64,000 nt of DNA from Lyngbya aestuarii BL J (GTDB lineage Bacteria; Cyanobacteriota; Cyanobacteriia; Cyanobacteriales; Microcoleaceae), in the NCBI RefSeq assembly GCF_000478195.2, contig NZ_AUZM01000028.1, positions 1 through 64,000 on the forward strand, read 5' to 3'. Below the pieces are notes generated by a model. That model saw only the letters and a list, made by a program, of their open reading frames with translations. It searched no databases and was not told the origin of the DNA. Position numbers and translations under genes: made by a program. Shown one piece after another: positions 53,810 through 63,949 of this stretch; position 1 is the stretch's first letter, and each line of letters starts with the position of its first letter.

Positions 53810-55783
53810 TTAAGGACTCACACGCTGCCATAATCGTTGAATTTCTCGCAGTTCATTCGGCTGAGGAGCATCTAAAACAGAGATTTGAGGATTGACTTGA
53901 GCGCCAGGAATATGTTGATTCCAGGGACTGTTAGCAACCGATTCTAGATTAACATTAGAATAAATCGGTCGAAAACCATACTGAACAAATACCTTTTGTT
54001 GCTCAGGTTCACTCAGAAAATCCACAAATTTACTGGCAGCATGAGCAGTCCTTAAATTAACATGATGACGCAAAATTGCAGCCGTTGCAACGCTTTCGAT
54101 AGTGGGATTGAGATAATAGATTTGATAAGGTCTGCTTTGATTGATTCCCGCCTGTTGCCAACGAGATAAAGCAATACTTTCGTAAACAGTCGTCACATCA
54201 GCATCGTTGGGGCCGCGTGTGATAAATTCTTGCAATAAAATATCAGTTGAACGGGGCGGTTGATAAACAGATTGTTCGATCATTTTAAACAAAGATTCGG
54301 CGCTGGAAGTATTCAAGTTTAGCGAATTTCCCTGCTTGGAATTCAGCCACAAACTCAGCGTCACTTGACCACTATTAGAACGAGTCGGATCGGTCATTAC
54401 AAAATCAAAACTTCCCCAATTCTCTTGTCCGCCCATTTTATCCCAGGTTTTCGCTTGCATTGCTTGTTCAATTCGTTGCCAAGAAAATTGATTATTGGGA
54501 AACAATATTTTACCTCTTTCCGGCCAAGCAATTCCGACTAAAAAGGTTTTGGCGATCGCTTGGGGAGGTTTGTAAAAGAGTTCACCATCATTTGAGACTT
54601 GCCAACGTTGACTTAATTCCTCTAAAAATTCTTGACTAGCTGGAATTAAAACTGTAGGCTTAAAATCATTATTTTGATGAATGTAATTATTCACCATATC
54701 CGATGAACCTTGAAACTTAAGTTCGAGGTTAATATTAGGATATTTTTGTTCAAACTTCGTTTCTAGTTGTTGTAAAGGTTCGGCGAGTTCGCTACCACTC
54801 ACCACAACAATTTTCTGTTCAAGTCCGGGAATGGGTGCATAAGCTAAACCCACAACCAGACTCGCCAAAATCGTAGAAGTTATCAGTCGTTTATGTCGTT
54901 TAAGGGGAGAATTATTGTTCATTTTTGAAACCGTTTTTTGTCTCGTTTGCATTCCGAGTAACTGTTGAATTCGTGACTCCGTAGGAGGATGAGTTGAGAA
55001 TAACTGATTAAACATTTTCCCCTGAAAGGGATTAATAATCAAAAGAGAAGCATAGGTCGCTTGGCTGGAAAAAGGGATTTTTTGACTCTTTTCTATTCGT
55101 TCCAATGCTTTCGCTAAAGCCCGGGGATTTCCGGTTAATGAAGCGGCTCCCGCATCGGCTGCATATTCGCGAGTTCGAGAAATCGATAATCGGATTAATG
55201 TTGCAGTAATGGGCGCTAAAAGAACCATTAACAGCAAGGAAAATTGACGCAAAGGATTTGCACTTCTTAAATTAAAAATACTGCCTAAAAAGACCGTAGT
55301 TCCCAACTGTGTTAACAGCGAAATGGCTCCGGCTAATGTGGCTGCAATGGTTACAATTAACGGATCTCTGTGTTTAATATGGCTGATTTCATGGGCGATA
55401 ACTGCTTCTAATTCATCTTCGTGAAGCATTCTTAATAATCCCTCCGTTATCCCGATAACAGAGTTTTCTGGATTGCGTCCAGAAGCAAAAGCATTCGCCA
55501 TAGATGACGGAATAATATAGACTTTGGGAACGGGTAAATCAGCACGATAACAGAGTAATTTAACAATCGGATCGAGTAATTTTTTTTCTGGGGAATTGGG
55601 AGAACGAGCCTGATAAACCGACAAGACAATTTTATCGGAATGAAACCAGAGATAAAAGTTGATTCCAATAGCAATAACTAAACCAATCCCCGCACCCATT
55701 ACACCTCCAATGAGTAAATAACCCATGAGGATAATTAATCCAGTCAAGAAACCCAGTAATGCTGTTGTTTTAATGAAGTTCAT
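53810..55783 (-). CDS. HtpX-type M48 metalloprotease fused to a periplasmic solute-binding domain
   Basis: About 657 residues. The N-terminal part (1-about 290) is HtpX-like: two hydrophobic segments (about 8-45), the zinc site HEISH (His131, Glu132, His135) and a third-ligand Glu in SRTREYAADAGAAS. A further membrane segment (about 300-318) leads to a substrate-binding-protein domain of the type-11 or molybdate-like class (about 325-650; IVVVSGSELAEPLQQL, TDPTRSNSG, YGFRPIYS). The start ATG (55783) overlaps the TAA stop of the upstream gene by one base (TAATG), with GGAG before it. The binding domain is homologous to that of the vWA lipoprotein in the same cluster. Confidence 0.9.
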   Translation of the reverse strand: MNFIKTTALLGFLTGLIILMGYLLIGGVMGAGIGLVIAIGINFYLWFHSDKIVLSVYQARSPNSPEKKLLDPIVKLLCYRADLPVPKVYIIPSSMANAFASGRNPENSVIGITEGLLRMLHEDELEAVIAHEISHIKHRDPLIVTIAATLAGAISLLTQLGTTVFLGSIFNLRSANPLRQFSLLLMVLLAPITATLIRLSISRTREYAADAGAASLTGNPRALAKALERIEKSQKIPFSSQATYASLLIINPFQGKMFNQLFSTHPPTESRIQQLLGMQTRQKTVSKMNNNSPLKRHKRLITSTILASLVVGLAYAPIPGLEQKIVVVSGSELAEPLQQLETKFEQKYPNINLELKFQGSSDMVNNYIHQNNDFKPTVLIPASQEFLEELSQRWQVSNDGELFYKPPQAIAKTFLVGIAWPERGKILFPNNQFSWQRIEQAMQAKTWDKMGGQENWGSFDFVMTDPTRSNSGQVTLSLWLNSKQGNSLNLNTSSAESLFKMIEQSVYQPPRSTDILLQEFITRGPNDADVTTVYESIALSRWQQAGINQSRPYQIYYLNPTIESVATAAILRHHVNLRTAHAASKFVDFLSEPEQQKVFVQYGFRPIYSNVNLESVANSPWNQHIPGAQVNPQISVLDAPQPNELREIQRLWQRVSP

Positions 55784-56316
55784 TAGTTTTTTACTCCTTG
55801 GAATAAACGATAAAATAGAGTTAATACTCCCGGAACAAACCAAATAAAAACATAAATAATCCTTCCTAAATATTGTATTTTTATCCAGAAAGAAGAACCA
55901 TGTAAAGTGACTACCGATGCTCCCGTATTGATACCCAATTCAATAATTTTCCCCTCATCTTCACGCGCTTTATAATCATTAGAGCCATAATCTTTAAAAA
56001 AAATCTCCTCGCCCTCTTTAGGGGTAATGTAGGCTTCATAGTTGATTTCTTTATAAGATGTACCTTCGGAATCTCTACGAATGATCTCCTTTGTTTTTAC
56101 TTGAAAAGTTGATAGTCGAAAAGGAGGCGATGAATCTGATAAGAAACCGAATAGATATTGATTATCAAATTGACAAGTGACATAATTTCGTTCTAATCGT
56201 TCACAAGTTAACTGAGTTGAACTACCGAAGAACAGTATTAATATTGGCAAACCAATAACTGTTATCAATAGAGTATTTTTGTCGGTTGGTTTTGTCCTGG
56301 TTCTAGTCATACTCAA
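55783..56316 (-). CDS. Small membrane protein of the sensor-protease cluster, unknown function
   Basis: A 177-residue protein with one hydrophobic segment near the N-terminus (about 16-34), a soluble middle (STQLTCERLERNYVTCQFDNQYLFGFLSD, with two Cys) and a second segment at the C-terminus (about 150-170). Its stop codon is overlapped by the start of the HtpX fusion gene, so translation is coupled. No family is recognised. It is presumably an envelope component of the same cluster. Confidence 0.75.
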   Translation of the reverse strand: MSMTRTRTKPTDKNTLLITVIGLPILILFFGSSTQLTCERLERNYVTCQFDNQYLFGFLSDSSPPFRLSTFQVKTKEIIRRDSEGTSYKEINYEAYITPKEGEEIFFKDYGSNDYKAREDEGKIIELGINTGASVVTLHGSSFWIKIQYLGRIIYVFIWFVPGVLTLFYRLFQGVKN

Positions 56317-56365: not shown

Positions 56366-57091
56366 TCAATTAATAAAAATATCCAGATTGGCTTGATAAT
56401 CATTCAGTTCATTACTCAAACTTCTCAATTCTTGCAAATCTTTTGAATTACTCAAGTCAGCCGTTCTCAACTTATTCTGAAGCTTTTGTAACACACCTGC
56501 CGAGTTTTGAATGCTCGTAGAAAGGCTAATAATTTTAGCTTCGCGAGTATCTTGACCCGCTTGAACTAACGCCATATTGCGTTCTAAACTTGCTGCTAAC
56601 TGCTCCAAATTTTGACGGGTAATACCCGAACTCGAACGAATTTTACTTTTCACCTCTAAAAGCTGTTTTTCCAGTTCATTAACCGAGAGTAAAGACTCCT
56701 GTTCCGGTAAACGTTCGGCAATTTTATCAATTTTTTGGGGTAATTCAATAGTGCGATCGCAAATGTCCTGAACCGCCACCAAAACCTCGATATTAAAAGA
56801 GGTTTTATTCATTAACTTATTGGCTTCCTGACGCAATTCTTCGGCTTTGATAGCTAGATTTTGACTGGAGACTTTCAACAGTTCTACTTCTTGTTGTAGT
56901 TGCTGTTGAGCAATTGTTTTCGCCTCCGGTTCTCGGGATTTTAAAACCGATGCAGTCGCCACCGTAACCACTGCGACTGTAGGAAGGATAATCTTATTAG
57001 ATAACCCCGCCAAACGAACACCCGCAACCAGAGTAATTCCTCCCATCAAAACAGCAATAGGATAATAGATTGGATTCGCTAATTTAATCAT
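56366..57091 (-). CDS. Membrane-anchored coiled-coil protein
   Basis: A 241-residue protein with a hydrophobic N-terminus (about 8-50) and a helical, Gln/Glu/Leu-rich remainder typical of coiled coils (about 58-100, 120-240; LQQEVELLKVSSQNLAIKAEELRQEANKLM). No enzymatic motif. It lies between the vWA lipoprotein gene (29 bases upstream) and the small membrane protein gene (49 bases downstream). It could act as scaffold for the other membrane proteins; this is inference. Confidence 0.78.
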   Translation of the reverse strand: MIKLANPIYYPIAVLMGGITLVAGVRLAGLSNKIILPTVAVVTVATASVLKSREPEAKTIAQQQLQQEVELLKVSSQNLAIKAEELRQEANKLMNKTSFNIEVLVAVQDICDRTIELPQKIDKIAERLPEQESLLSVNELEKQLLEVKSKIRSSSGITRQNLEQLAASLERNMALVQAGQDTREAKIISLSTSIQNSAGVLQKLQNKLRTADLSNSKDLQELRSLSNELNDYQANLDIFIN

Positions 57092-57120: not shown

Positions 57121-58815
57121 TTAAAACTCAACTTGTAAATCTGCCATCAAAGTAGAAATCGTTTCCGGATCTCCCTGGCGATAATAACCGCTATTCAAGT
57201 CAGCAATTTCCTGTAAAACTGTTGAATTAAACTCGCCTTTTTTTCCATAGCCAATCGTAAAAAAGGCAATTCGTTGATCCGTATTAAAGCCTGTTTTTTT
57301 GAGTTCTTGTTGAAGTTTATCTAAAGAAATTTGAGATGCAGAATCTTCTCCATCCGTCAAAATAATCACCGCATTAATCGCATCCGGTTGTTGGTTTTGT
57401 TGCAGCCAAGTTTGAGCAGATAAAGTTGCATCATACAATTTTGTACCGCCTTCCGCTTTCAAATTATTAATAAATAGCATTCCTTGATTGCGTCCTTCTG
57501 ACGTTCCATCTACCACAACAGGCGGGCGAATTTCCGAGTCAAAATCAATCAGCGCAATTCTTTCTTTCACCCCCAAACTTTCGATATAATATCGCAAAGT
57601 ATTCTGAACTCCCGATAACTTTCTCCCCACCATTGAACCCGAAGAATCGACAACAATCACAACTTTTGAAGGTTTTTTTGCAAATTCTTGCCAAGACTTT
57701 AACATCGCCTCTACCACCTCCGGTTCCGGCGATCGCAAAGAATCATATCGAGCATTGGGATCGACTCCAAATTGAGGCGAAAATTTAGCCCCCAAAGCCA
57801 CTCCCGGCACACCGGGCCTCAATCCAAATTCAGTTGCTATTTTTTGAGCTTCAGGCGATCGCAAATACTCAATTATTTGTTCTGCTGCGGCTTGTTCATC
57901 CGCACTCACCCAAGGCGCATTTGGCAAAATTGCTCGCATATTTGAAGTAAAAGTAGATCGGGGATAAATCGCTTCATACTGAACTAAATTACTTTTTTTA
58001 TTTGTATTAGCCGCAATCACAGAAGACTCATAAACCGATGCAATTGACGCCCAAAATGAACCATTTTTCACCATATCAGAAGCCAAAGAATTCGTTGAAA
58101 TTCCGTAGCGAGTAACTTTACTTTGAATTTGTTGAACTTGGGATTGATACTGCTGGATATTTTCTACAGTTAATTGTTCGGGGGGTTTGTTCGCAACCGA
58201 AGCAAATTGAGTCACTAAAGTTTGTAAACCGGAATTAGAACGAGTCGGCGCCGTTTGTACAAAATGAATGGGCAATAAAGGACTGTTGGGATCGAGATCT
58301 TGATGAGTTTTTGCATTCAGTAATGCTTGGTATAAATTCTCTTGTTTGCGTAATCCGACCGCGACTTCTGAAGGCACCATAAACACCATTGGACTATTTG
58401 CTAAAAGCGGCGCATCGGTGACTTGGGGAATGTAATTTTGTCCGGGGAAAATCTGATTAATTTGATAGCGGAGTTGAGTCAGATAAATGTCTCCATCTAC
58501 AGAGATTAATGTCGGAAATTCGGGTGCTTCTGGGGGTAAAGTTCCGGCTTTGAATTGTTCGGCGAGAGAGACAACCTTACTCACAACATCTCCGCTCCCT
58601 TTGGCTTCACAACTTAGGTAAAAGGCTTGACCATTTTCTAGCTTATGTTTTTGTCGGTTAAACTGATGAGCCGCTTGGCTACAGAACTTTTCTAAAGCAC
58701 TTCCAACTAAAAATTTAACCTCGATTTCTTCTCCACTAGAAGCAGAATTACAAGCATTAAGCAACAGCAGTCCTGATGCGACCATCAGACCTGTAATTAA
58801 GTGATGAGTTTTCAT
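57121..58815 (-). CDS. Lipoprotein with solute-binding domain and von Willebrand factor A domain
   Basis: A 564-residue protein. The signal ends in the lipobox LLNAC (lipid Cys22). Residues about 32-355 form a type-11 substrate-binding domain (KFLVGSALEKFCSQAA, TAPTRSNSGLQTL, ASVYESS, EFGLRPGVPGV). Residues about 382-560 are a vWA domain with an intact metal site: DSSGSM at 390-395, Thr in GGTKLYDA, and Asp in ILTDGEDS. The site should bind Mg2+ and a ligand. Blocks RSNSG, VYES and FGLRP match the binding domain of the HtpX fusion protein in the same cluster. Likely membrane-anchored in the periplasm. Confidence 0.92.
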   Translation of the reverse strand: MKTHHLITGLMVASGLLLLNACNSASSGEEIEVKFLVGSALEKFCSQAAHQFNRQKHKLENGQAFYLSCEAKGSGDVVSKVVSLAEQFKAGTLPPEAPEFPTLISVDGDIYLTQLRYQINQIFPGQNYIPQVTDAPLLANSPMVFMVPSEVAVGLRKQENLYQALLNAKTHQDLDPNSPLLPIHFVQTAPTRSNSGLQTLVTQFASVANKPPEQLTVENIQQYQSQVQQIQSKVTRYGISTNSLASDMVKNGSFWASIASVYESSVIAANTNKKSNLVQYEAIYPRSTFTSNMRAILPNAPWVSADEQAAAEQIIEYLRSPEAQKIATEFGLRPGVPGVALGAKFSPQFGVDPNARYDSLRSPEPEVVEAMLKSWQEFAKKPSKVVIVVDSSGSMVGRKLSGVQNTLRYYIESLGVKERIALIDFDSEIRPPVVVDGTSEGRNQGMLFINNLKAEGGTKLYDATLSAQTWLQQNQQPDAINAVIILTDGEDSASQISLDKLQQELKKTGFNTDQRIAFFTIGYGKKGEFNSTVLQEIADLNSGYYRQGDPETISTLMADLQVEF

Positions 58816-58926: not shown

Positions 58927-61560
58927 TTAAAAACCGTTTAATTTAATAATTTCAAACATATTATCCTCCCCGTTATTTTTAACCACGACTAACACACTCT
59001 TCGTTGATTTAACATCATTTGAGGATTCAAAATAAATCTCTCCTTCTGCTCCTTGGGCGAAAAAATTCGGACTCGAAAGCTTTTGATAAAGCTGAATACG
59101 ACTTAAATTTCCGCGACTTTCAATCAAGGCTTTAATTATCGCTTTAGTGGCATCATATGAAGTAGCAGTTCGCCAGTTTACAGAGCCTTTCCAAAAGCGT
59201 TGAGCTTGTTGGGAAAATTCAGAATCCGGTCTTCGATGCCAGGGAATGGCAATGGTAAGATTTCCGTTAAAAGCTTCTTCACCCGCATCTTTTAAAGTTC
59301 GGAAGCTGTAAACAGAATCTCCGCCTAAAAGTTGTAAATCTCCATTCGTATTGTTAATAATTCCAATCGCTTTAGTGAGGCTTTCATCTGTAGCTGGCAC
59401 TAATAACAAGACTTCAGCACCCTGATCTTTTGCCTTTTCTACACAGTCCGCTGCACTAAAAACACGGCTCGATAAATCGCATTTTTGAACAAAAGAATTA
59501 GGATAGAGTAACTCCTCAAATTCATTGCTTAGAGATTCACTGTAGGCATTTCCCGAAACATAAGCAACTGCTACTTTTGCATCTTGTCCGAGTTGCTGAC
59601 GCATATATTCAAATAACTGTTGAGCCGCCATGCGATCGCTCGGAACTGTCCGAAAAACATAACGACTAAAATTAGATAAACTCACCGAAGTGCTGGTGGG
59701 AGAAATCGCAACCAATCGATGTTTATCATAAATTTCTCCGGCTTTCAGTGTCATATCGCTCGAATAGTGACCAATCACCCCTAATATATTTTGATTGTTG
59801 ACAAAAGCTTCAGCGACTTTTTCGGCAACTTTCGGGTCATATTCATCATCAGCAATTGTCACCAGTAAAAAAGTTTCATTGATGAAACCTTTGGTACAGT
59901 TAAATTGAGTTTGAAGTTCGGAAATTGCTTGATAAACTTCTTCCAAACCACAATTAATCTCAGTTTGAGCTTGAGCGACACCTCGTAAAATTTCTTGGGA
60001 AACATTGGGTTCACTGCCAATCGGTACACTCACACCAATTTCAACTTTTTTCCCCGTGTTCGTCTTGACTTTTTCTTGAATAATTGCATTATTCAAATAA
60101 ATGAGAGTTTCCGGATCGTTAGGATTTTCATTCAGCGCCCGAATAAAATTATTGATCGCCCCTCTATAATCTCGATTATTGTAGTCAAGAATTCCGGCTT
60201 TCTTTGCAGGGTTTACATTAGATGAAATTAGAAGCTTTTCACCCTGGCTAATTTGATTTTCTATTTTTTGGGGAGTAAGATATTGAGGTTTGTCTACTAG
60301 AATCTGATAGAAAATAGACGCAAATATTGTAACTAATGCCAAACTCGCTGTTATCCCCAACGGTTTGATCCAAGCTTGTAGGAGGGCTTTAGGCTTAATA
60401 AAATCTTGCCAAATCAGCGAGTTGCTAGAAAGCGTGACTTCCTGTACGCAAAGGGTAGGCAGCCAGGAAACACCCGGATAAGACTTTTCAAAACCAGATT
60501 CAATCAGTCTTTCTCTCGAAAAATGAATCGAATGAAACAGCGATTTGTTGTTGCTAAATTCTTCAAAAAAATACTTCAAAAACTTGACCGCCACTTCATC
60601 AGGAATCGGTTCTCGCATCACAATACTTCGAGGTAAACCCAACTCCGCCAGTTGGTGGGCGAGTCCTAAACCATCGCAAGAATTGAAAATTGCCAGTTGT
60701 AACCCCTGTTTAATTGCTATTCCAAAAGAACTTTTAAATTCTTCAATGGAAATTGCATCCTGAGTATTATTTAATTCAATCTTGCCAATTGTTCCATCAG
60801 GATTGGAACAACTATGACCCGAAAAAATAAATAAGTGATAACCGTTTTCGTCTCGCAATGCTTGTGAAAGTTCTTCGCGAGTCGGTTGTTTTAAAAAAGT
60901 AACTTGTGCATTTTTTTTCTCTAAAGCTTGAATGACTTCTTCATCAAACTGAGTATTAATTCCTTCACTATTCCCAATTAAAGCTAACACTTTAACTTGA
61001 GAATATTGACGAATGGGCTGAATTCGTGTCCGGCTGCTTTGGAGACGAACCGCCACTTCCGCCTGAGGAAAACGATATTTGAATAAGTCCCATTCTTGCC
61101 AGGGAAGACGGCGCAGTTGAGAGTGGTCTGTATCGAGAAAAAGACGGGCTTCTTTTCCGGTTTTTTGTAAGTGACTGAGAACGGCAATTAATTCATCTCT
61201 CAGGGGTTGCCAAGCCGAATCTTGACAATTTAGCCATTCGTTTAAACTATTAACAACCGATTCTTTTTGCTCGGAACTTCTCGCTCTGGCTTCAGAATCG
61301 GTGATAATTTTTTTCGGGTTAATTCGATGACTAACAACCTGACGAACCGCTTCAAATTGACTGTAGGAATATTGCCACTGACTGTAAGCCTGATGACGAT
61401 AATCGGAAGATTCAAATTGTACTTTTGAGGCTTCTAAATCACCGGGTAAAGCGGGCAAATAACCATCGAGGGAATTAATTTGAGCATCGCTCATCGCCAG
61501 CCGAACTCTAAATTTATTAACTCCCTGATCCCAGAATACAAGCACTTTGATAACTGTCAT
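58927..61560 (-). CDS. CHAT-domain protease fused through a transmembrane segment to TPR and a periplasmic binding protein domain
   Basis: An 877-residue protein. The N-terminal half is a caspase-like CHAT domain: catalytic His249 in IFSGHS and Cys295 in FNSCDGLGLAHQ, followed by MREPIPDEVAVKFL. One transmembrane segment follows (about 399-420, LALVTIFASIFYQIL), then a TPR-like helix pair (about 455-495), then a type I periplasmic-binding-protein domain of the Leu/Ile/Val-receptor kind (about 505-870; VEIGVSVPIGSEPN, ILGVIGHYSS, AISPTSTS). The layout places the protease in the cytoplasm and the ligand domain outside it. It is 19 bases downstream of the DUF1822 gene. Confidence 0.93.
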   Translation of the reverse strand: MTVIKVLVFWDQGVNKFRVRLAMSDAQINSLDGYLPALPGDLEASKVQFESSDYRHQAYSQWQYSYSQFEAVRQVVSHRINPKKIITDSEARARSSEQKESVVNSLNEWLNCQDSAWQPLRDELIAVLSHLQKTGKEARLFLDTDHSQLRRLPWQEWDLFKYRFPQAEVAVRLQSSRTRIQPIRQYSQVKVLALIGNSEGINTQFDEEVIQALEKKNAQVTFLKQPTREELSQALRDENGYHLFIFSGHSCSNPDGTIGKIELNNTQDAISIEEFKSSFGIAIKQGLQLAIFNSCDGLGLAHQLAELGLPRSIVMREPIPDEVAVKFLKYFFEEFSNNKSLFHSIHFSRERLIESGFEKSYPGVSWLPTLCVQEVTLSSNSLIWQDFIKPKALLQAWIKPLGITASLALVTIFASIFYQILVDKPQYLTPQKIENQISQGEKLLISSNVNPAKKAGILDYNNRDYRGAINNFIRALNENPNDPETLIYLNNAIIQEKVKTNTGKKVEIGVSVPIGSEPNVSQEILRGVAQAQTEINCGLEEVYQAISELQTQFNCTKGFINETFLLVTIADDEYDPKVAEKVAEAFVNNQNILGVIGHYSSDMTLKAGEIYDKHRLVAISPTSTSVSLSNFSRYVFRTVPSDRMAAQQLFEYMRQQLGQDAKVAVAYVSGNAYSESLSNEFEELLYPNSFVQKCDLSSRVFSAADCVEKAKDQGAEVLLLVPATDESLTKAIGIINNTNGDLQLLGGDSVYSFRTLKDAGEEAFNGNLTIAIPWHRRPDSEFSQQAQRFWKGSVNWRTATSYDATKAIIKALIESRGNLSRIQLYQKLSSPNFFAQGAEGEIYFESSNDVKSTKSVLVVVKNNGEDNMFEIIKLNGF

Positions 61561-61579: not shown

Positions 61580-62521
61580 TTAAATCTTAAAATTTTCGAT
61601 AATCTTATCTTGATTTAAGGTGATTTGTAAACTAAATTGTTCCTGCGGTTTACAACCGACTTCCAACTCAATCCACTGATCTTCTTCTCTGGCTTGAGTC
61701 TTCATACAAGCGACTCCAGATTCATCGAGTACACTCACCTCCAAACCCGCAGGTAAATAAATGTTGTCTTCAAAGGAATAAAGTCTCATTTTAACATCAA
61801 CTTCTTCTGTAGAATTTTCGCTGACTCTTACAGTCAATAAAATAGCTGGCTTGGTGGGATCATTTTCCCATTGAATCACTTTACCTCGAATAAAGCTTTG
61901 TTCTAAGGACTTCGCAGTTCGGAAATTAGCCTCTCTTGCTGGTACTGAATTTGAACTTCTGACTGCATTCGGAATAGGTAATAATTGTATCGGTTGCCAT
62001 TCAGATTGAGTTAGGTTTTTCCACAAATTTTTCCATTTGCGATGCCATTCAATTGTATCAATTAAATGATCAAGGGAATGAAGCTGATTGAGAGGGATAG
62101 ATTCAGGAGGACAAGCAATTTCTTGAGCGGAAACAAACCCTAATAACTTGACTTGTTGGAGGTCTTCACTCAACTGAACCGTAACATAACCTAAACGGTT
62201 ATCAGCAACTTCTGGAGAAATTTCTAAATGATCTTGATTGGGTAAAATCGGAATACATTCTAGTTTACCTAAATGAGGTAAAACTAAGTCAGCTACATTC
62301 AACATTGCCCTTTTAGTAGGATGCCAACAGTCTCCTTGATCAATTGCAGTAGAAATGGATAACCATCCCAGATAATCTCGCACCGCAACAACCGCTAATG
62401 TATTGAGATAAACCTGTTTTCCTTTCTGCGGAGTAGCTTGTTCTCTAGCAAATTGTTGGGCAAAACGGTGAGCATCTTGGCTAATCGGAACAGGTAAAGT
62501 TAAAGAGAAAGTTTGGTTCAT
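61580..62521 (-). CDS. DUF1822 family protein
   Basis: A 313-residue protein of the cyanobacterial DUF1822 family (LNTLAVVAVRDYLGWLSI, GYVTVQLSEDLQQVKLLGF, a C-terminal beta region with VRVSENSTEEVDVKMRLY). No signal peptide. The function is unknown. Its start overlaps the stop of the sigma-like gene by four bases (ATGA), so the two are translationally coupled; this pairing with a sigma-like protein is a recurring arrangement in filamentous cyanobacteria, as I recall it. It is followed by the CHAT fusion gene. Confidence 0.9.
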   Translation of the reverse strand: MNQTFSLTLPVPISQDAHRFAQQFAREQATPQKGKQVYLNTLAVVAVRDYLGWLSISTAIDQGDCWHPTKRAMLNVADLVLPHLGKLECIPILPNQDHLEISPEVADNRLGYVTVQLSEDLQQVKLLGFVSAQEIACPPESIPLNQLHSLDHLIDTIEWHRKWKNLWKNLTQSEWQPIQLLPIPNAVRSSNSVPAREANFRTAKSLEQSFIRGKVIQWENDPTKPAILLTVRVSENSTEEVDVKMRLYSFEDNIYLPAGLEVSVLDESGVACMKTQAREEDQWIELEVGCKPQEQFSLQITLNQDKIIENFKI

Positions 62522-63204
62522 TTTTCTAGTCCAAAGCGTTTGCTAATTTGATCACCAATCGTTTGTAATAAAGGAAGACATTTCCGCTTCCAGTGAGAGT
62601 AAAGCGTTTGGTTGCTGATATTATATTCTCGGGCGATCTCAGAAATTTTATGAGGAGGTTGTTGTAAAAGTAGGCGTATTGCTAAAATTTGGCAATGACA
62701 TTCTGGTTGTTTTTTGGGATAACAATTTTTGAGCAGATTTTCGGGATCTTTTTCAATATACTCCCACACTGTATCCCCAATACTTAAACGTCTTTCCTTT
62801 TGAGTTTGTTCGATCCATCCCTCAAGATTGGTGATGGCATTTGGATCTTCTAAGCGATCCATTAGAGTGGTTGATTCTCCCTCTTTGTTGCTGATTGGAC
62901 GATCTAAACTTGGAGTATGATTAGTCGTAAACAAATCTCTAACCCTCCATTTTAAATAACCATTAATCCAACGAATAAGGCTCTGCTCAATAGAAGGAGG
63001 ACGGGGTTCAAAAGATTGAATGTTTTTACACACCCATTCTAGGGTACGATTGAGCGCCTCAGAATAGTCCCGATGGGAGGATCGGTATAAATCTGGATGT
63101 CCTTGGATGATAATCAGGAGTCGAGTTAAGGCTTTGCGTCCTTTGGAACTGGTGTGTTCAAATTGCTGGAGTTGCTCGATTAAGTCTTGAATTTGTTGAT
63201 CCAC
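62518..63204 (-). CDS. Sigma-70-like regulatory protein
   Basis: A 228-residue protein with sigma-region-2-like helices (YSEALNRTLEWVCKNIQSFEPRPPSIEQSLIRWINGYLKWRVRDLF) and a C-terminal helix-turn-helix of region-4 type (HKISEIAREYNISNQTLYSHWKRKCLPLL). A longer frame opens at a TTG at 63408, but homologues begin near VDQQIQDLIEQL. GGAG lies 10 bases before a GTG at 63204, which is chosen; the ATG at 63231 is an alternative. It is the first gene of the cluster and overlaps the DUF1822 gene. It may direct transcription or act as an adaptor protein. Confidence 0.85.
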   Translation of the reverse strand: MDQQIQDLIEQLQQFEHTSSKGRKALTRLLIIIQGHPDLYRSSHRDYSEALNRTLEWVCKNIQSFEPRPPSIEQSLIRWINGYLKWRVRDLFTTNHTPSLDRPISNKEGESTTLMDRLEDPNAITNLEGWIEQTQKERRLSIGDTVWEYIEKDPENLLKNCYPKKQPECHCQILAIRLLLQQPPHKISEIAREYNISNQTLYSHWKRKCLPLLQTIGDQISKRFGLEK

Positions 63205-63949
63205 AGCGCGCGCTCTCCTCTGTAGCTGCATCTCTATATGGTTTTGTTGTGGGTGATAAACCCGAAGATGCTTTGAGTGTAACGGACAAGGAGGAGACAA
63301 AGAGTAGTATGGCTCTCTTAGTCGGGTTCGTGTCATAAAATTGATAGACTGATTAGGATATACTGCAATATCAGTGAGGTCAGTCAAATTTATGAACAGT
63401 TTGCTCAATGTGATTTTCGGCTAAATCTCAAAACCCATAAAGCCAAGTATTCAAGGCTTCTGAGAGCTTCATCCGCTTGATCCTCAACTTCGAGATTTCA
63501 GTTGATTTAGACGAATATACGGATGTTAGTGTACAAGGAAAATCTCATCACTTCCCCAAATTCACTAATTTTTACTTCTCAATCATGTCCAACTCATGTC
63601 CCAATCTTTACCGAAGCTTTACACAGAAAGCCTTTAAACTTTACAAAAACATCTAGTATCTTTACAATAAATACTCCTATAATTGCAGTTAAGAGAAGCG
63701 AAGCATTAATTGAACTTTAGAAAAGATTTGACATCTAAAATCTTGGTTAAAGAGCGATTAGTGAATCAATTCAGGAACGCATTCAGACGGAAATTGAAGC
63801 TGTTGGTGTCTCGATATCAGCAACTAAACTTCAAGTGAAGCTTCCCATACAAAAGTTCACTCCCTGCCCCAGTGCAAAATCCTACACTGATCACAGAGAG
63901 TTAATCGGGGGATCTAATCAATCTAGCCATTTAGTCATAACTTTTACCT
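63205..63949. other. Intergenic region between the sensor cluster and a glycosyltransferase gene
   Basis: This region separates divergent genes and should contain their promoters. The part up to 63408 is open in the sigma-like frame, so the gene may be longer. A 68-codon frame without a start (63751-63956, SESIQERIQTEIEAVGVSIS) looks protein-like but is not recognisable. No RNA gene is seen. The AT-rich stretch 63530-63720 shows nothing recognisable. Confidence 0.5.

Follow-up and report, generated by a model that had tools for sequence, protein, structure and literature searches.

A putative ligand-gated CHAT receptor protease encoded with a sigma factor and a DUF1822 protein in Lyngbya aestuarii and other cyanobacteria

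In Lyngbya aestuarii BL J, a single gene joins a caspase-like CHAT protease domain to a periplasmic binding domain, which raises the question of what such a protease responds to and on what it acts. To our knowledge, almost no cyanobacterial CHAT gene has a known trigger or substrate. The gene lies at 58927-61560 of the window, i.e., the 64,000-nucleotide stretch that was analysed (NZ_AUZM01000028.1, positions 1 to 64,000); it and all other features given coordinates below are on the minus strand. Its open reading frame is present as initially annotated, starts with ATG, and encodes 877 amino acids. We favour the reading, which we hold to be evenly poised between right and wrong, that the product serves as both input and switch in a sigma factor/DUF1822/CHAT module in which ligand-gated cleavage of the DUF1822 protein would act on the sigma factor.

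The CHAT domain (PF12770, residues 117-354, 60499-61212) scored 51.1 bits against a Pfam cut-off of 24 (E 1.7e-13), and the type I periplasmic binding domain (Peripla_BP_6, residues 564-864, 58969-59871) scored 78 bits against a cut-off of 31.7 (E 1.4e-21); both domains had been named in the initial annotation. In an alignment of 52 proteins carrying the same fusion (CHAT-PBP proteins), His249 (GHS motif, 60814-60816) and Cys295 (NSCD motif, 60676-60678) were invariant in all 52 along with their surroundings, which is the pattern expected for catalysis. The protein is therefore classed as a CHAT protease by profile and intact His/Cys dyad, and its peptidase activity is predicted.

A hydrophobic helix at residues ~403-421 (60298-60354; Kyte-Doolittle hydropathy 1.94) lies between the CHAT and binding domains, and hydropathy gave no second strong membrane helix in the 877-residue protein, in agreement with the one helix first proposed. 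Because the helix flanks had a positive-inside charge bias in 43 of the 52 CHAT-PBP proteins, the binding domain is predicted to be periplasmic and the CHAT domain cytoplasmic, the latter as had been supposed. The 'TPR-like repeats' placed after the helix came down to a single TPR-like unit (residues ~452-493, 60082-60207), which reads 'DYRGAINNFIRALNENPNDPETLIYLNNA' and was recognised by sequence reading; its motif is kept in relatives, but Pfam found no TPR match in the protein. The predicted topology would also allow signalling without cutting, with CHAT as a binding switch and a ligand-driven conformational change freeing DUF1822 and the sigma factor from the membrane. Such a switch gains from the fact that CHAT protease activity in this subfamily is a prediction; we nevertheless consider it very unlikely, given that the invariance around His249 and Cys295 is what catalysis would lead one to expect.

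The best solved relatives of the binding domain were 4mlc, which is annotated as an 'extracellular ligand-binding receptor' with its ligand not named, and amino-acid binding proteins of the 3ip5 type (3ip5-3ipa), followed by leucine-binding proteins. The Leu/Ile/Val label first attached to this domain holds only at the level of the fold: the curated LIV substrate-binding model scored 46.6 bits against a cut-off of 477, and identity as a Leu/Ile/Val-binding protein was rejected. Ser601 was invariant in 52/52 CHAT-PBP proteins and Thr624 was kept in 35/52. We take these to be the residues by which LIV-type proteins bind the carboxylate and the amino group of their amino-acid ligand; this correspondence makes an amino-acid-like ligand likely. 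Relatives ~44% identical to the neck plus sensor (residues ~430-876) occur as ~480-residue open frames in most of 58 other genomes of the family, which suggests that a common solute-binding protein was probably the source of the sensor.

The receptor gene is the third in a row on one strand, after genes for a sigma factor (gene 1) and a DUF1822 protein. The first two overlap by 4 bp and are predicted to be translationally coupled; a gap of 19 bp separates the DUF1822 and CHAT genes. No terminator-like site was found between the three genes on their strand, and promoter-like sites in the region were no more frequent than expected by chance. This genome has eight DUF1822 genes, seven of them immediately 5' of a CHAT gene, the CHAT partners carrying Peripla_BP_6 (cassettes C28 and C25), CHASE2 (C19, C2, C7 and C8), or nSTAND1-WD40 (C1); no gene 1 was recognised in C19. 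Elsewhere in the same genome, a DUF1822 gene adjoins a long-type gene 1 and has no CHAT neighbour (L012:5584-8476). CHAT genes are numerous in cyanobacterial genomes; this one (G000) gave 46 CHAT matches in 6.9 Mb.

A scan of one genome per species (84,980 species), from which the best 80 matches were kept, gave 78 distinct loci. Among 59 CHAT-PBP6 genes with at least 2.5 kb of upstream sequence, DUF1822 was directly 5' in 36 and the full trio was present in 34. As this set had been chosen by CHAT, a control sample was drawn phylum-wide by DUF1822 alone (n=39): CHAT was directly 3' on the same strand in 25 and a gene-1 homologue (short sigma-like or long) directly 5' in 18, while CHAT was only elsewhere nearby in 0/39. 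Roughly one in three DUF1822 genes of this sample had no CHAT neighbour. The sigma/DUF1822/CHAT trio thus recurs across Cyanobacteria. Separately, a close relative of the CHAT domain, without binding domain and possibly transferred, occurs in the non-cyanobacterial Candidatus Halobeggiatoa (L094:157-1821).

The other 23 of the 59 PBP-type CHAT genes, like C23 of this genome, do not have DUF1822 directly upstream. Such genes would fit a HetF-like membrane CHAT protease serving division or development, with its substrates encoded elsewhere and the sigma and DUF1822 genes only setting its expression. Anabaena HetF, likewise cyanobacterial, has the same order of parts (CHAT, one helix, then TPR; PMC8406250, PMC12288457), its protease activity can cleave the regulator PatU3 (PMC12288457), and its model gave a weak partial match here. 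On the other hand, that match reached 41.1 bits against the equivalog cut-off of 1200 (NF045509), by which identity with HetF was rejected; HetF has no binding-protein sensor and no reported sigma/DUF1822 cassette, both of which are present here; and gene linkage and co-variation (see below) favour DUF1822 as the partner. We regard this explanation as quite unlikely.

The locus extends beyond the trio. Two conserved neighbours, an SBP-VWA protein (57121-58815; Pfam SBP_bac_8 and VWA) and a 241-residue membrane/coiled-coil-like protein (56366-57091), adjoin the sigma, DUF1822 and CHAT genes in Okeania and Gomphosphaeria (L063, L134, L136, L138 and L139). In relatives, mostly Okeania, the run comprises sigma, DUF1822, CHAT-PBP6, a free PBP6, CHAT-PBP_like_2, SBP-VWA, the ~240-residue protein, and an SBP. 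The genome of the window has neither the free PBP6 nor the second CHAT gene at this locus, and the last SBP, which is PstS-like, is fused to an HtpX-type M48 protease (53810-55843). The SBP part is what is conserved as a neighbour; a search of 58 other family genomes did not turn up this second protease-receptor fusion of the locus.

Gene 1 (62518-63408) is listed with 296 codons from a TTG at 63408; since its relatives of ~220 residues align from near an ATG at 63231, the true start is probably this ATG, giving ~237 residues. The product is assigned as an ECF-like sigma factor chiefly by fold. Its AlphaFold model (pLDDT 81.7) gave SigH, SigE, SigB, another SigB-type model and sigma-28 as the top five Foldseek matches, and all 50 of the VIA-align matches listed were sigma factors or RNA polymerase sigma chains. 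Alignment with 1or7 gave a Z of 9.3 over 159 residues, with an rmsd of 12.3 that is likely due to differing placement of the two domains, and the sigma2 region alone matched SigW over 88 residues at 4.1 A (Z 8.0). Comparison by hhalign with the genome's own sigma-70 set gave a probability of 71% (E 4.7e-6). Pfam Sigma70_r2 and r4 did not match the protein of the window, Sigma70_r2 was found at E <= 0.1 in 7 of 44 relatives (best 5.5e-4), and the A1 profile had no match in the PDB. Gene 1 is accordingly read as a sigma factor from the modelled sigma2 and sigma4 fold, with sequence support weaker than that of the fold. Several cassettes (C25, C1 and C8) have a different, longer gene 1; hhalign gave nothing in favour of the long variant as a sigma factor, and it was not accepted as one.

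The DUF1822 protein (61580-62521; 313 residues; Pfam E 4e-82) is the candidate substrate and sigma regulator; the initial annotation had aptly singled out the DUF1822 and sigma-like genes as possible targets. Its AlphaFold model (pLDDT 88.5) has an alpha/beta N-terminal part, a disordered linker (residues 191-206, 61904-61951; pLDDT <50), and a beta-rich C-terminal domain. The C-terminal half matched common Ig-like folds at intermediate Z values, and comparison of the N-terminal half was slight; within that coverage, no known anti-sigma domain matched. By sequence, the only solved structure found was a chance match in the PDB (E 0.32), and the DUF1822 profile found no Csx30 chain there. Only some relatives (e.g., L034, L039) have a helical-repeat-like insert in this linker. 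In small genomes (~2 Mb) within the phylum, the DUF1822 N-terminal half is encoded inside ORFs of ~1000 residues (e.g., L177:2433-5351), usually one per genome.

The linker contains Phe200-Arg201-Thr202, a candidate cleavage site. The linker Arg recurs, with Phe, Leu or Met before it and Ser, Gly, Thr or Asn after it, a pattern that was formed post hoc and is illustrative only. In a ranking of all linker dipeptides, Phe-Arg came top, being present in 17 of 33 non-redundant linkers (4.3 expected); a larger, overlapping set of 46 non-redundant CHAT-linked linkers had it in 23, where 5.3 were expected and none of 1000 shuffles exceeded 13. Some relatives have no Phe-Arg (e.g., 'FADI' in L031). 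The linker Arg is also kept in some DUF1822 proteins that have no CHAT neighbour, so that the motif may have a role other than cleavage, as a structural or docking site.

The sensors found on the CHAT core were Peripla_BP_6, PBP_like_2 (PstS-like), CHASE2, nSTAND1-WD40, and WD40 alone. A tree of 99 CHAT domains required at least 13 sensor changes among six classes, and for Peripla_BP_6 alone at least three on strongly supported branches; the CHAT domain of the window groups with relatives that have PstS-like sensors and apart from the two further PBP6 paralogues that its genome encodes. CHAT distances correlated more strongly with those of DUF1822 (r 0.72) than with those of the protein's own sensor (r 0.49; 95% interval of the difference 0.04-0.41). 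Together, the sensor changes and the co-variation indicate that what is conserved as a functional unit is most likely the sigma/DUF1822/CHAT set, to which the sensor supplies an exchangeable input. Co-variation and operon structure are also expected of co-inherited genes whose products do not touch, but the weaker correlation with the sensor argues against that explanation alone. The suggestion that the fusion points to nutrient sensing overlooked this exchangeability, the sensor being one of at least five inputs on the same core.

The mechanism we propose would begin with the binding of a small molecule, probably an amino acid or a compound like it, to the periplasmic Peripla_BP_6 domain. Closure of this domain would be relayed by way of the TPR-like neck and the one membrane helix to the cytoplasmic CHAT domain, which, once activated, would cut DUF1822 in the disordered linker between its two domains, near Phe200-Arg201-Thr202. 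The cut would alter the way in which DUF1822, as a putative anti-sigma factor, controls the sigma factor encoded with it; in the simplest case the sigma factor would be released, and, freed or activated, it would switch on a regulon. By analogy, ligand-gated proteolysis finds support in two precedents. One is HetF and PatU3; the other is type III-E Craspase, in which Csx29 (TPR-CHAT) cleaves Csx30, an inhibitor of CASP-sigma (PMC10028731). Craspase and the present cassette both encode a CHAT protease together with a two-domain partner and an ECF sigma factor, but the trigger of Craspase is target RNA acting via Cas7-11, whereas a periplasmic ligand is proposed here. PADLOC matched neither Cas7-11 nor other type III-E parts among five proteins of the locus, and none was recognised in the ORF lists; no CRISPR parts being found in the cassette, membership in Craspase was rejected.

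The system has been known in outline since Kaur et al. 2021 (eLife, PMC8195603), who described computed neighbourhoods of EACC2-caspase, ECF sigma and DUF1822 genes with variable C-terminal sensors. As far as the accessible portions of that paper go, the shared features are the caspase-like domain, the variable C-terminal sensors (CHASE2 and STAND among them), and the ECF sigma and DUF1822 neighbours. Those portions leave the PBP sensor unnamed among 'several small-molecule-binding domains', whereas it is Peripla_BP_6 here. The same authors class DUF1822 among TPR proteins, an assignment against which the model obtained for the protein in the window speaks: it shows two domains, alpha/beta and Ig-like, and no TPR. 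In nine aligned paralogues from the genome of the window, ~110 residues with scattered conserved positions precede CHAT; they may correspond to EACC2, the constant N-terminal alpha+beta domain of that system. In the literature searched, no experimental test of EACC2-caspase/ECF sigma/DUF1822 systems was found. Also comparable, in the part of a 2012 survey that was available (PMC3501461), are single cyanobacterial metacaspases with ANF_receptor or CHASE2, which likewise combine a caspase-fold protease with an extracellular receptor domain but are Peptidase C14 metacaspases, not CHAT proteins, and appear in the survey's description without a cassette.

In the same neighbourhood Kaur et al. proposed activation by autopeptidase action, whereas we propose cutting of DUF1822. 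Their proposal leads to a reading as a conflict or cell-death system, in which the EACC2-caspase protein would cleave itself when triggered by the sensor, an emergency or suicide programme would be run by the sigma factor or a released fragment, and DUF1822 would serve as an adaptor instead of a substrate. Other CHAT proteins act in immunity, and copies are sometimes broken in relatives, as in systems that turn over fast. We judge it unlikely all the same: a PADLOC scan of five proteins of the locus gave no meaningful match, on which a defence system was rejected; sensing of the environment is the classical role of periplasmic solute-binding sensors and of CHASE2; the presence in one genome of seven cassettes that differ in their sensors is suggestive of signalling; and the conserved motif sits in DUF1822. 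The initial annotation had spoken of a ligand-controlled death or signalling protease. Signalling fits the anatomy and the predicted topology; death found no support, and the conserved partner, a sigma factor, points to a transcriptional output instead. The broken copies were observed at L137, L139, L141 and L143, where the CHAT or DUF1822 gene is interrupted by stops or frameshifts, and may reflect decay or draft-assembly error.

What is new here is the widespread PBP-sensor version, the quantified sensor exchange, the two-domain DUF1822 model, and the Phe-Arg linker motif. Extended to cyanobacteria in general, the ligand-gated cleavage reading would have many interchangeable sensors, periplasmic or cytoplasmic, lead CHAT proteins to cut their cognate DUF1822 at Phe-Arg and so release the cognate sigma factor, a generalisation that we offer tentatively, as rather less than an even bet. 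In one operon, which is small enough to be rebuilt in a laboratory strain, the module brings together a type of trigger (a solute-binding sensor), a candidate substrate and the site at which it might be cut, and an output (the sigma factor). If the reading is true, caspase-like proteases would be tied to ordinary environmental signalling, in a ligand-driven counterpart of the RNA-driven Craspase. On the generalised reading, such modules would be a general form of transmembrane signalling beside two-component systems, and Craspase with its sigma factor would be one branch of a wider protease-to-sigma theme.
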